A model generated the notes under the pieces. That model saw only the letters and a program-made list of their open reading frames with translations, was not told the origin of the DNA and made no database searches. This document shows, in pieces, positions 45,233 to 50,087 of a DNA stretch of 64,000 nt (its first letter is position 1; every line of letters begins with the position of its first letter). The translations under genes and the position numbers were made by a program. This DNA is from Halobacteriales archaeon QS_4_69_34 (GTDB lineage Archaea > Halobacteriota > Halobacteria > Halobacteriales > Halococcaceae): the NCBI GenBank assembly GCA_003021045.1, contig PXRN01000034.1, positions 1-64,000 of the forward strand, given 5' to 3'.

Positions 45233-45238
45233 CTTAAC
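45233..45238 (+). promoter_or_regulatory. TATA-like element of the RPA gene
   Basis: CTTAAC at 45233-45238, about 31 nt before the ATG at 45269. Confidence 0.35.
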
Positions 45239-45268: not shown

Positions 45269-46816
45269 ATGGGCGCGATAGCAGACGTCTTCGAGGACCT
45301 CGACAGCGAGGTCCCGGAGGCGGAGTTCAGGGAGGCCGTCGCCGAGAAAGTCGAGACGATGGGGGGACTCGCCGACGAGGAGACCGCCGCGATGCTGGTC
45401 GCCCACGAGCTCGACGGGGGCGGCGAGATCGAGGGGATCGCCGACGTCGAGCCGGGCATGGAGGAGGTCAAGTTCCTCGGGAAGGTCACGAGCGTCGGCG
45501 AGCTCCGCACCTTCGAGCGCGACGACGAGAGCGAGGGGCGGGTGCTCAACGTCGAGGTGGCCGACGAGACGGGACGGGTTCGGGTCGCGTTCTGGGACGA
45601 GCGGGCGGAAGCGGCCGCCGAGGAGCTCGAAACCGGCACCGTGCTGCGGATCGCGGGCCGCCCGAAGGAGGGCTACGACGGCGTCGAGGTCAACGCCGAC
45701 CGCGCCGAACCCGACGACGCCGAGATCGAGGTCGACGCCGCAGCCGACACGATCGCGGGGCTCTCGCTGGGCCAGTCCGGCGTGAGTCTGGTTGGACTGG
45801 TGCTGGATACCGACTCCGTGAGGACGTTCGAGCGCGACGACGGCTCGGAGGGCCGGGTGGCGAACCTCGCGCTCGGCGACGACACTGGACGGACGCGAGT
45901 GACGCTCTGGGACGCCCAGACCGAGCGGGCCGAGGAGCTCGAATCGGGCGACGTCGTCGAGGTCGTCGACGGCTACGTCCGCGAACGCGAGGGCGACCTC
46001 GAGCTCCACGTGGGCGAGCGCGGCGCGATCGAGGAAGTCGACGCCGAGATCGAGTACAGCCCGGAGACGACGCCCATCGACGCCCTGGAGATCGACACCA
46101 CCGTCGACATCGCGGGCGTCGTCCGGTCGGCGGACCCGAAGCGCACCTTCGAGCGCGACGACGGCTCGGAGGGCCAGGTTCGGAACATCCGGGTGCAGGA
46201 CGCGACGGGCGACGTGCGGGTCGCGCTCTGGGGGGAGAAGGCCGACCGGGAGATCGGCCCTGCCGACGAGGTCCAGCTGACCGACGTCGAGATCCAGGAT
46301 GGCTGGCAGGACGACCTCGAAGCCTCCGCCGGCTGGCGCTCGGCGCTCACGACGCTCGACGGGGTGGCGAGCGCGGACGCCCGGGAGGCCACCGGAGCTG
46401 ACAGCGACGGGACGAGCGACGCCGACGGGCGAGCGGGCACGGCCGGGAGCGGGGCCAGCGCGGACGGCGCGGCCGGTCTCGACTCGTTCGCCGGCGGGGG
46501 AGCCGGAGCGGGGGCGGCGGGAGACGGCGGCACGACCGACGGCGGCGATAGCGGGAGTATCGGGGGCGATGCGGACGGTGGGGCCGACGCGGGTGGGAAG
46601 GCGACCGCGGACGGGGACGGAACCGCAGCGTCGAACGGTGCCGGCGAACCGATCGAGTTCACCGGGACGGTCGTCCAAGCGGGCGAGCCGGTAGTGCTCG
46701 ACGACGGTACTCGAACCGTGAGCGTCGAAACCGCGACCGAGGTCCGGCTCGGCCAGAAGGTTACCGCCCGGGGGCCGATGGTCGACGGGCGGCTCGACGC
46801 CGAGGACGTCCTCTGA
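45269..46816 (+). CDS. rpa2: replication protein A, RPA2-type single-stranded-DNA-binding protein
   Basis: The 515-residue protein has three tandem OB folds (about 66-150, 175-245 and 275-345). Each contains the echo 'RTFERDD(E/G)SEG(R/Q)V...V(A)FW' ('LRTFERDDESEGRVLNVEV', 'VRTFERDDGSEGRVANLAL', 'KRTFERDDGSEGQVRNIRV'). A long Gly/Ala/Asp linker (about 372-455) leads to a fourth OB-like segment ending 'GQKVTARGPMVDGRL'. No zinc finger is visible. In Haloferax the RPA2 gene is the essential one and is not part of an rpa-rpap operon; here too it is followed by a histone gene rather than an RPA-associated gene. It binds and protects ssDNA. Confidence 0.88.
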   Translation: MGAIADVFEDLDSEVPEAEFREAVAEKVETMGGLADEETAAMLVAHELDGGGEIEGIADVEPGMEEVKFLGKVTSVGELRTFERDDESEGRVLNVEVADETGRVRVAFWDERAEAAAEELETGTVLRIAGRPKEGYDGVEVNADRAEPDDAEIEVDAAADTIAGLSLGQSGVSLVGLVLDTDSVRTFERDDGSEGRVANLALGDDTGRTRVTLWDAQTERAEELESGDVVEVVDGYVREREGDLELHVGERGAIEEVDAEIEYSPETTPIDALEIDTTVDIAGVVRSADPKRTFERDDGSEGQVRNIRVQDATGDVRVALWGEKADREIGPADEVQLTDVEIQDGWQDDLEASAGWRSALTTLDGVASADAREATGADSDGTSDADGRAGTAGSGASADGAAGLDSFAGGGAGAGAAGDGGTTDGGDSGSIGGDADGGADAGGKATADGDGTAASNGAGEPIEFTGTVVQAGEPVVLDDGTRTVSVETATEVRLGQKVTARGPMVDGRLDAEDVL

Positions 46817-46930
46817 GAGCGATTCGTAGCGGCGGTCGCCGGTTCCCGTCTCGATCTTCGATTCCTTCCGGTCACGCCCGCACGTGAAACCGAATACCGC
46901 CACGAATCCCCCCGAGCAGCCACGGAAACC

Positions 46931-46936
46931 CTTAAG
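46931..46936 (+). promoter_or_regulatory. TATA-like element of the histone gene
   Basis: CTTAAG at 46931-46936, about 27 nt before the ATG at 46961. Confidence 0.35.
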
Positions 46937-46960
46937 AGCGAAACCGCCCCCGAAGGTGGT

Positions 46961-47464
46961 ATGAGCGTCGAGCTCCCGGTCGCGCCGGTCGACGCCCTCA
47001 TCAGGCGGCATGCAGGCTCGTTGCGAGTGAGCGCCGAGGCCGCCGAGGAGCTCGCCTGTCACATCCAGCGCCGCGGGGCGGCGGTGGCCAGCGAGGCCGC
47101 CGAGCGGGCGACCAGGGAGGAACGAAAGACCCTCCAGCCGGCGGACTTCGACGGGCTGGCCGCCGGAGCGACCGGGAGCGTCGGGGAGGTCGTCGATCCC
47201 GGTCTCGACACCGAGCCGAAGCCGGACGCGGAACCGGAACTGCCGATCGCGCCGGTCGACCGGATCGCCCGCCTCGACATCGACCCGGAGTTCCGCGTGG
47301 CGACCGACGCCCGGGTGGTGCTCGCGGGCGCGCTCGAAGCCCACGCGGCGAACGTCGCTGCGGCGGCGGCGATCCTCGCGCGCCACGCCGGCCGGCGGAC
47401 GATCAAGGCAGAGGACGTCGAGGCCTACCGCGCCCTTGAAGCGCACTTTCCGGGCCGGGGATGA
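46961..47464 (+). CDS. hstA: fused double histone (archaeal HstA type)
   Basis: The 167-residue protein holds two histone folds. The first starts 'ELPVAPVDALIRRHAGSLRVSAEAAEELACHIQ...TLQPADFDGL', the second 'ELPIAPVDRIARLDIDPEFRVATDARVVLAGALEAHAANVAAAAAILARHAGRRTIKAEDVEAY', joined by a short acidic linker. Haloarchaea characteristically encode such a fused dimer. It is highly acidic for a DNA-binding protein. Its TGA overlaps the ATG of the deacetylase-family gene (ATGA at 47461). Confidence 0.93.
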   Translation: MSVELPVAPVDALIRRHAGSLRVSAEAAEELACHIQRRGAAVASEAAERATREERKTLQPADFDGLAAGATGSVGEVVDPGLDTEPKPDAEPELPIAPVDRIARLDIDPEFRVATDARVVLAGALEAHAANVAAAAAILARHAGRRTIKAEDVEAYRALEAHFPGRG

Positions 47465-48489
47465 GGTTCGGCTACGCCGAGGCGTGCCTCCGACACGACA
47501 CCGGCCCGCGCCACCCCGAGAGCCCCGACCGCCTCCGGGCGATCAGACGGGAGCTCGCCACTCGCCACGGCGTCGAGTACGTCGACCCCGGGCCCGCGTC
47601 CATCGAGACGATACGACGGGTCCACGACGACGCCTACGTCGACCGCCTCGAAACGTTCTGTGCCGACGGCGGCGGCGAGTGGGACGCCGACACCGTCGCG
47701 GTCGCGGCCACCTGGGACGCCGCCCTCGAAAGCGCCGGGCTGGCGGTGTGGGCCGCCCGGGCGGCGCTCTCGGGAGCCGGGGGTCGCGAGACGCCGTTCT
47801 CGCTCGGTCGTCCGCCGGGCCACCACGCGGTCGCCGACGACGCGATGGGCTTTTGCTTTCTCAACAACGTCGCCATCGCCGCCCGGAGCGCCCTCGACTC
47901 CGGATCGACGGACGCCGCCCGAGACGACGCCGGGCGAGTGGCGGTCGTCGACTGGGACGTCCACCACGGCAACGGCACACAGGAGCTGTTCTTCGATCGC
48001 GGCGACGTTCTGTACACGTCGATCCACGAGCGGGGGCTCTACCCGGGCACCGGCGCGATCGAGGAGACCGGGACGGGCGCGGGCGAGGGGACGACCTGCA
48101 ACGTCCCGCTGCCCGCGGGGGCCGGCGACGCCGCCTACGCCGCGGCCGTCGACGGAATCGTGGCCCCGCTCGTCGCGGACTTCGCGCCCGACCTCCTGCT
48201 CGTGAGCGCGGGCTTCGACGCCCACGGGCGCGACCCGATCTCCCGGATGGACGTCTCGACGGAGGGCTACGGGCTGCTCGCCACCCGCATGGCCGACCTC
48301 GCCCGGGTGAGCGACGCGGCGCTCGCGTTCGTCCTCGAAGGCGGCTACGGCCTCGACACGCTCGCGGGCGGGGTCGGCACCGTCAACGAGGTCTTCGACG
48401 GCTACGAGTCCGCCGAACCAGAGGGCGAACCCGACGAGCGCGCGCGAGACGTCATCGAGGAAACCCGGCGGATCCACGGCCTCGGGTGA
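47461..48489 (+). CDS. histone deacetylase family protein
   Basis: The ATG at 47461 lies in the histone stop (ATGA), giving 342 residues. Motifs: 'RPPGHHA' (H121/H122), 'VDWDVHHGNGTQ' (zinc ligands D166 and H168), 'SAGFDAH' (third ligand D253) and 'FVLEGGY'. All catalytic and zinc positions of class II-like HDAC/acetylpolyamine amidohydrolases are present. It deacetylates lysine or polyamine substrates. Coupling with the histone gene implies chromatin-related or DNA-linked deacetylation, although haloarchaeal histone acetylation is not established here. Confidence 0.92.
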   Translation: MRFGYAEACLRHDTGPRHPESPDRLRAIRRELATRHGVEYVDPGPASIETIRRVHDDAYVDRLETFCADGGGEWDADTVAVAATWDAALESAGLAVWAARAALSGAGGRETPFSLGRPPGHHAVADDAMGFCFLNNVAIAARSALDSGSTDAARDDAGRVAVVDWDVHHGNGTQELFFDRGDVLYTSIHERGLYPGTGAIEETGTGAGEGTTCNVPLPAGAGDAAYAAAVDGIVAPLVADFAPDLLLVSAGFDAHGRDPISRMDVSTEGYGLLATRMADLARVSDAALAFVLEGGYGLDTLAGGVGTVNEVFDGYESAEPEGEPDERARDVIEETRRIHGLG

Positions 48490-48584: not shown

Positions 48585-50087
48585 TCAGGGCTCCGGGTCG
48601 AAGTAGCGCGCGAGCTCGACGCCGAACGTCCGGGCGAGCGCCGCACAGTCGCGTCCGACGAGCAGCTCGTGGCCCTCCCGCAGGGCGGGCTCGACATTGG
48701 TCCCGAGACCGACGTCGAACAGGGCCGATTCGAGCACCGCTCGGGGCTTACGGTACTCGCGCTCGCGCTCGACGACGTAGCGATCGCCCTCGACGAACGG
48801 GCCGTAGCAGTCGGCGTCGGCGTACTTCTCGTGGAAGCCCGCGGCGTGCTCGCGTGCGCCGAGGGGCGGCCCCTCGTGGCGCTCGATCGGGGGGCGCTCG
48901 GCGACCGCACACTCACAGAGCAGGACGGCGATCCCGCGGCCGTCGCCGTCCGCGTCGCCGCTTCTCGCCGCGTCCACTCCGGTCTCTCCGTCCGCACCGC
49001 CGGTGGTGGCTGTCACGTTCGCGCCGTCGGTGCTGGCGTCCGTACCGTCGGTCGCTCCGCTCGCGTCGGCGGCGTCGTCCGTGCCGGCGGCGAACGCGGC
49101 GGCGCGCAGGACGTCGAAGCCGGCCGCATCGAGCGCGCGCCGCACGCCCGCGAGCGACTTCTCCAGCTGGGGGTAGAGCTGGTCGTCCACCAGCTCGGGA
49201 GCCCCGAATCGGACGGCGATCGGGGTCGTCCCCCGGCGCTCGATCTCGGTCCGTACTGCTGTGGGCGAGAGCGGGCCGGGCGTGTCACGCTCGAAGAGCG
49301 CGATGCGGGGATCGGCGAGGAGCTCGCGGGCGTAGTGCTGGAAGCGCGCGAGATTGGTGGGCGAGAGGACGGCCGCGACGTTGCGCTCGGGGTCGGTCGG
49401 ATCGATCACCACCAGCGGATCGTCGAACGCTCGCGTGGCGTGATCCTGGGGATCGAGGCGCACCGGGGGCGACCAGTCGGCGGCGGCTCCGACGAGCGCG
49501 CGGAAGCCGCCGTGTTCGAGGACCAGCAGCTCGGCGAGATAGCCGGAGAAGCCCCGTGTGCGGAGGTCGCTACCGTAGACGCCGATCGCGGCGAGAAATC
49601 CCTTCAGGAGGCGGACGTCGGCGGCGAGCGCGTCGTCGAGGCGAGTTTCGAGATAGCGCGTGTGAAAGGGGGTCCGGTCGACCGCCGAGCGACTCTCGGC
49701 TGCGTTCTCGACCCGGAAGCAGGGCACGCAATCGACGTCGAACCCCTCGAACGCGCCCGTAACGTAGGGGTGCTCGGCGTACTCCTCGCGGCCTCCGGGG
49801 AGCACCCGGTGTCCGACGGCGAGCCCGTGTGCTTCGAGTTCCGCTCTCCCGAGCGCCGGCGGGAAGCGCACGAACAGGTCGACGTCGCGGTCGCCGGCTA
49901 TCCAGGTCCCGCGGGCCGTGGAGCCGACCAGCACGGCGTCCGCCTCGACCGGCAGGTCCGCGACGGCCGCCTCGGTCCGCGCGAGCAGCCGCTCGGTCGC
50001 GGCTTCGAGGCGGGCGCGCTCGTCGGGCGTGGGATCGACCCGCTCGCGGGCCCGCGCGAGGACCGCCGCGAGCTCGTCGTCGGTCAT
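48585..50087 (-). CDS. cca: archaeal CCA-adding enzyme (class I tRNA nucleotidyltransferase)
   Basis: The 500-residue protein has the nucleotidyltransferase motif 'VLVGSTARGTWIAGDRDVDLFVRFP' with the DxD metal ligands, 'PYVTGAFEGFDVDCVPCFRV' and 'VRLLKGFLAAIGVYGSDLRTRGFSGYLAELLVLEHGGF', the class I archaeal CCA enzyme core. Haloarchaeal versions run about 450 residues. An extra Thr/Ala/Asp-rich insert (about 338-382) lies in the C-terminal domain. It adds or repairs the 3' CCA of tRNAs; both tRNA genes nearby lack an encoded CCA. Confidence 0.92.
   Translation of the reverse strand: MTDDELAAVLARARERVDPTPDERARLEAATERLLARTEAAVADLPVEADAVLVGSTARGTWIAGDRDVDLFVRFPPALGRAELEAHGLAVGHRVLPGGREEYAEHPYVTGAFEGFDVDCVPCFRVENAAESRSAVDRTPFHTRYLETRLDDALAADVRLLKGFLAAIGVYGSDLRTRGFSGYLAELLVLEHGGFRALVGAAADWSPPVRLDPQDHATRAFDDPLVVIDPTDPERNVAAVLSPTNLARFQHYARELLADPRIALFERDTPGPLSPTAVRTEIERRGTTPIAVRFGAPELVDDQLYPQLEKSLAGVRRALDAAGFDVLRAAAFAAGTDDAADASGATDGTDASTDGANVTATTGGADGETGVDAARSGDADGDGRGIAVLLCECAVAERPPIERHEGPPLGAREHAAGFHEKYADADCYGPFVEGDRYVVEREREYRKPRAVLESALFDVGLGTNVEPALREGHELLVGRDCAALARTFGVELARYFDPEP

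Follow-up and report, generated by a model that had tools for sequence, protein, structure and literature searches.

A conserved histone–deacetylase gene pair in Halobacteria: gene order, promoters and the histone as a possible substrate

Genes and promoters at the locus

The window analysed here, a stretch of 64,000 nt from Halobacteriales archaeon QS_4_69_34, carries in a row the genes for an RPA-type single-stranded DNA-binding protein, a double histone and an enzyme of the HDAC family (Table 1). All three had been named in the initial annotation and were confirmed in place by profile matches, and the ATGA by which the deacetylase start was said to overlap the histone stop was read in the sequence. 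RPA2 reached 698.7 bits against the NCBIfam equivalog NF005551 (cut-off 575, which 1 of 14 control genomes also exceeded) and so belongs with the haloarchaeal RPA2 proteins. It contains a long Gly/Asp/Ala/Thr-rich stretch between its OB folds and its C-terminal part (window 46370-46650). The same families occur in the same order in Haloferax volcanii, as rpa2 (HVO_0519), hstA (HVO_0520) and hdaI (HVO_0522); the only differences seen were in sequence, the window histone having a linker about 20 residues longer than usual, and the numbering suggests a tag HVO_0521 between hstA and hdaI. The pairing of the single histone gene with the deacetylase gene was published in 2010 (Soppa 2010, PMC2946573), and both the cotranscription and the overlap of histone and hdaI have been published for H. 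volcanii.

Table 1. Features of the rpa2, histone and deacetylase locus, in window positions
Feature	Position	Strand	Basis
TATA-like CTTAAC, probable rpa2 promoter (own transcription unit)	45233..45238	+	sequence; TTWA count in homologous loci
rpa2, RPA-type single-stranded DNA-binding protein, 515 aa	45269..46816	+	NF005551, PF01336, PF16900
BRE-like GGAAA, -37..-33 of histone start	46924..46928	+	A at -35, -34, -33 in 85-95% of 101 loci
TATA-like TTAAG, -29..-25 of histone start	46932..46936	+	T, T, A at -29..-27 in 90-92% of 101 loci
Histone gene, acidic doublet of two histone folds, 167 aa, pI 5.15	46961..47464	+	PF00808 in two stretches, NF043032
Codon of histone K56 (R55-K56-T57, loop L2, fold 1)	47126..47128	+	only invariant lysine
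ATGA, HDAC start overlapping histone stop	47461..47464	+	sequence
hdaI-type class II zinc-dependent deacetylase homologue, 342 aa	47461..48489	+	PF00850, 277.8 bits
CCA tRNA nucleotidyltransferase, convergent neighbour outside operon	48585..50087	-	TIGR03671, 470.9 bits

When 101 upstream regions were aligned at the histone start, a common GAAA at -36 to -33 and a common TTAA at -29 to -26 emerged, peaking at 1.9 bits per position, and TTWA was present ahead of the histone in 70 of the 101 loci and never in the control stretch. This spacing of GAAA and TTAA is the standard haloarchaeal BRE/TATA layout with a leader that is very short or absent, and a short leader or none is expected for the histone mRNA. 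The aligned regions held no signal farther upstream of these elements. We note that three positions before the histone start, -18 (A 74%), -13 (C 92%) and -1 (T 92%), are also strongly conserved in the window (46900-46960) and 100 homologous regions; perhaps they represent an operator or initiator. The RPA promoter signal in homologous loci is weaker than that of the histone; 55 of 94 loci have TTWA between -36 and -19 of the RPA start (control stretch 0). No promoter element was found directly before the deacetylase gene in these loci, where an SD-like motif is also rare (12/101).

The initial annotation had presented RPA2, histone and HDAC as one cluster; the gene order stands, the single unit does not. 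Membership of RPA2 in the operon was ruled out because rpa2 and the histone gene each have conserved promoter elements and the two are separated in 11 of 100 loci. The operon consists of two genes, histone and hdaI, and rpa2 is a neighbour transcribed from its own promoter, 144 nt from the histone gene in the window. With its ATGA overlap and a promoter upstream of the histone only, the window pair belongs with the Haloferax-type histone–hdaI operon. We propose that the histone's own promoter drives one histone–hdaI mRNA, a step that draws on the observed gene order and promoter and on the cotranscription published for H. volcanii. Ribosomes ending the histone frame would then begin again on hdaI, whose start overlaps or adjoins that frame, and the deacetylase would be made in step with the histone; such coupling is suggested by the overlap and by the absence of a second promoter for the HDAC gene.

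Conservation of the gene pair across Halobacteria

In a sample of 294 Halobacteria genomes from 79 genera, the histone and HDAC families were both present in every genome. A search with the window deacetylase found the linked type in 289 of them at E 1e-123 or better (G251, counted among the 289, scores lower as it is cut by contig ends), while the remaining five held only a distant HDAC paralogue with E near 1e-58. One hundred linked loci, mostly picked via the deacetylase, were inspected from nearly every sampled genus; a few genomes appear twice among them, and the distinct proteins number 99 of each kind. Histone and deacetylase genes were adjacent on the same strand in all 100 loci. The gap between them was 10 nt or less in 96, the genes overlapped or abutted (spacing of 0 or less) in 53, and the overlap was of the -4 type in 35. 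By comparison, the RPA gene was the immediate upstream neighbour of the histone in 89 of the 100 loci, and the CCA gene was convergent and no more than 800 nt downstream in 78 of 99, having moved away in the other 21. The view that the gene order is kept in Haloferax is thus correct, and the comparison extends it to nearly the whole class. As the RPA and CCA neighbours have been lost repeatedly and the histone–deacetylase contact never among these loci, we argue for selection on that pair; synteny inertia alone is an unlikely cause of the adjacency.

A rival reading is that the linkage was simply inherited as synteny and means nothing for function. The neighbourhood is indeed old, and some other archaeal families also have histone, HDAC and CCA genes no more than a few kb apart. 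However, contact within 10 nt has been held in nearly all linked loci while RPA and CCA drift, and the HDACs of those other families do not belong to the subfamily of the linked enzyme (p 0.003 in an AU test, for a group chosen after the tree was seen), so that we regard inheritance without function as very improbable. On the same AU test, orthology of the linked HDAC with the HDACs near histone and CCA genes in other archaeal families was not supported. At five loci from four families outside Halobacteria (L200, L201, L202, L203 and L204), a singlet histone gene is followed, at a distance of about 1-4 kb, by an HDAC gene that is itself near to and convergent with the CCA enzyme. The histone–HDAC–CCA neighbourhood may therefore be older than the class Halobacteria, though with another HDAC subfamily.

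There are exceptions within the class. In one genus (genomes G001 and G007; loci L160 and L159) hdaI has been cleanly lost, leaving RPA, histone and CCA genes directly adjacent; a distant HDAC paralogue is present at another site in these genomes. In three further genomes from two deep families (G021, G220 and G288) the histone is unlinked. The clean loss indicates that at least one natural lineage can do without the linked deacetylase, whose absence is possibly covered there by the distant paralogue.

Class and function of the deacetylase

The match of the window enzyme to the Hist_deacetyl domain far exceeds the cut-off of 27.9 bits, and the presence of all zinc ligands, as first annotated, was borne out: alignment places the ligands at D166, H168 and D253, the catalytic dyad at H121/H122 and the tyrosine at Y296, and these residues are near-invariant in 101 sequences. 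Sequence and fold searches both returned HdaH, HDA15 and HDAC6 as the closest relatives, that is, class II enzymes and not those of class I, class IV or ApaH. The window enzyme has its catalytic residues in common with these proteins; it differs in being about 30 residues shorter than HdaH chains before the first aligned block, and identity in the fold matches is 28-35%. A tree groups the linked enzymes in a single supported clade; with the exception of one sister, the other haloarchaeal paralogues fall outside it. The window deacetylase contains no lysine among its 342 residues. Going by the aligned residues and a structure model of moderate confidence (pLDDT 78), the most likely identity of HdaI is that of a zinc-dependent class II enzyme that deacetylates protein lysines.

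One alternative is that HdaI acts on acetylpolyamines or is some other small-molecule amidohydrolase. The gatekeeper P259-I260-S261 is present in all 99 sequences that cover it, DPISR is invariant in all covering sequences, and a DP-I-S gatekeeper is also seen in bacterial polyamine deacetylases, where the PIS motif goes with dual activity (PMC11532494); dimethoate hydrolase is, in addition, among the close structural neighbours of HdaI. This ApaH-type motif alone is not specific, however. The Glu gatekeeper and PEG motif of the HDAC10 type are absent, Ile standing in place of the Glu, and the nearest folds are those of HdaH, HDA15 and HDAC6 and not those of polyamine deacetylases, with ApaH ranking far below HdaH in sequence and missing from the 50 best fold matches. 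The orders that lack polyamines, as given in PMC11532494, include Halobacteriales, which makes lysine deacetylation the better reading, and a polyamine function would leave the histone linkage unexplained. Taken together, the missing HDAC10 Glu, the fold neighbours and the listing of Halobacteriales make polyamine deacetylation unlikely as the main function of HdaI, and we give a small-molecule role little credence. Activity only on small polyamines, the outcome that was to overturn the proposed link to chromatin, is thus unlikely.

The histone as a possible substrate

The best PDB matches of the window histone were HMfA and HMfB, and its AlphaFold2 model contains two three-helix folds (mean pLDDT 75). 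The two PF00808 matches, the acidic pI and the two-fold model place it with the haloarchaeal acidic doublet histones (HpyA, HstA; cluster 3, PMC13260811), which likewise have two fused acidic folds; cluster 3 and the homologue set assembled here both have a median length of 143 aa and a pI of 4.7. A longer linker is the sole difference of the 167 aa window protein from these doublets. This linker between the folds (window 47130-47240) exceeds that of nearly all relatives, and only one other locus, L075, is similar.

Lysines are scarce in haloarchaeal histones, averaging 2.6 per chain over 101 sequences. K56 occurs in all 101 and is the sole lysine in 24; it aligns with HMfB K53, part of the RKT motif in loop L2, and fold 2 has arginine at the corresponding position. 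No other lysine is invariant, so any action of the deacetylase on the histone across the class would have to be at K56. The acetylated site of the Thermococcus histone is K35 (PMC8775648), a position that carries no lysine here. Conservation of K56 was ruled out as a sign of acetylation, since the residue is retained in all five genomes without a linked HDAC and the RKT motif is a general feature of archaeal histones, HMf included; it is equally explained by DNA binding.

Genetic data from Haloferax and Halobacterium bear on the substrate. HVO_0519 (RPA2) is the only essential RPA of H. volcanii. Both hstA and hpyA can be deleted, so that the histone is dispensable in both genera, and the growth defect of the hstA deletion is complemented by hstA alone. 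In contrast, hdaI was reported to be essential in 2009, a result that needs repeating because the pat2-elp3 lethality from the same study was not reproduced in 2025 (PMC12323606). If hstA is deletable and hdaI essential, the need for HdaI cannot lie simply in its acting on the histone; either the essential target of HdaI is another protein or a hyperacetylated histone is harmful.

An explanation for these data is that HdaI is a general lysine deacetylase of the proteome or metabolism with essential non-histone targets, which shares with the histone only a promoter and an expression level and for which the histone is no significant substrate. The dispensability of the histone set against the reported essentiality of hdaI fits this explanation, as do the persistence of K56 without a linked HDAC and the acetyl-lysine documented on haloarchaeal metabolic enzymes such as glycerol kinase. 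It is harder to explain by expression level alone why the adjacency is unbroken in 100 linked loci despite shuffled neighbours, and although we take a purely general role to be a serious possibility, we consider it somewhat less probable than the following model.

We propose that HdaI, translated in step with the histone from the histone promoter, most likely deacetylates several proteins, the histone probably among them; the odds of this whole explanation appear to us about even. If the histone is a substrate, the site must usually be K56, and removal of an acetyl group from this residue, located in the loop L2 of fold 1 that faces DNA, would be predicted to restore its positive charge and DNA binding. 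A more specific version, a one-site switch, is rather doubtful; in it, acetylation of K56 would free the histone from DNA, and the coupled deacetylase, present in fixed proportion to the histone, would reset the switch. That haloarchaeal histones bind few sites counts against the histone as a substrate, as does the missing lysine at the Thermococcus position. The initial suggestion that acetylation of DNA-bound proteins is tied to chromatin is reasonable and has been published as a guess, and deacetylation of the histone by HdaI is plausible. Against the suggestion stand the contrast between hstA and hdaI, the separate transcription of rpa2 and the literature: no acetyl-lysine on a haloarchaeal histone or RPA was found in the article texts searched, a negative that covers those texts only.

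The gene arrangement itself is real, widely conserved and already described. The present analysis adds the conservation of the pair measured against its neighbours and the anatomy of the promoters; it also shows that one genus has lost hdaI naturally and that K56 is the only candidate site common to all the histones. Whether acetylation regulates archaeal histones is a question of long standing. The genus that lacks hdaI and retains the histone with its K56 provides a natural knock-out for comparison, and a single universal lysine, together with a linkage that extends across nearly the whole class, makes the guess that the histone is a substrate easy to test at one residue.
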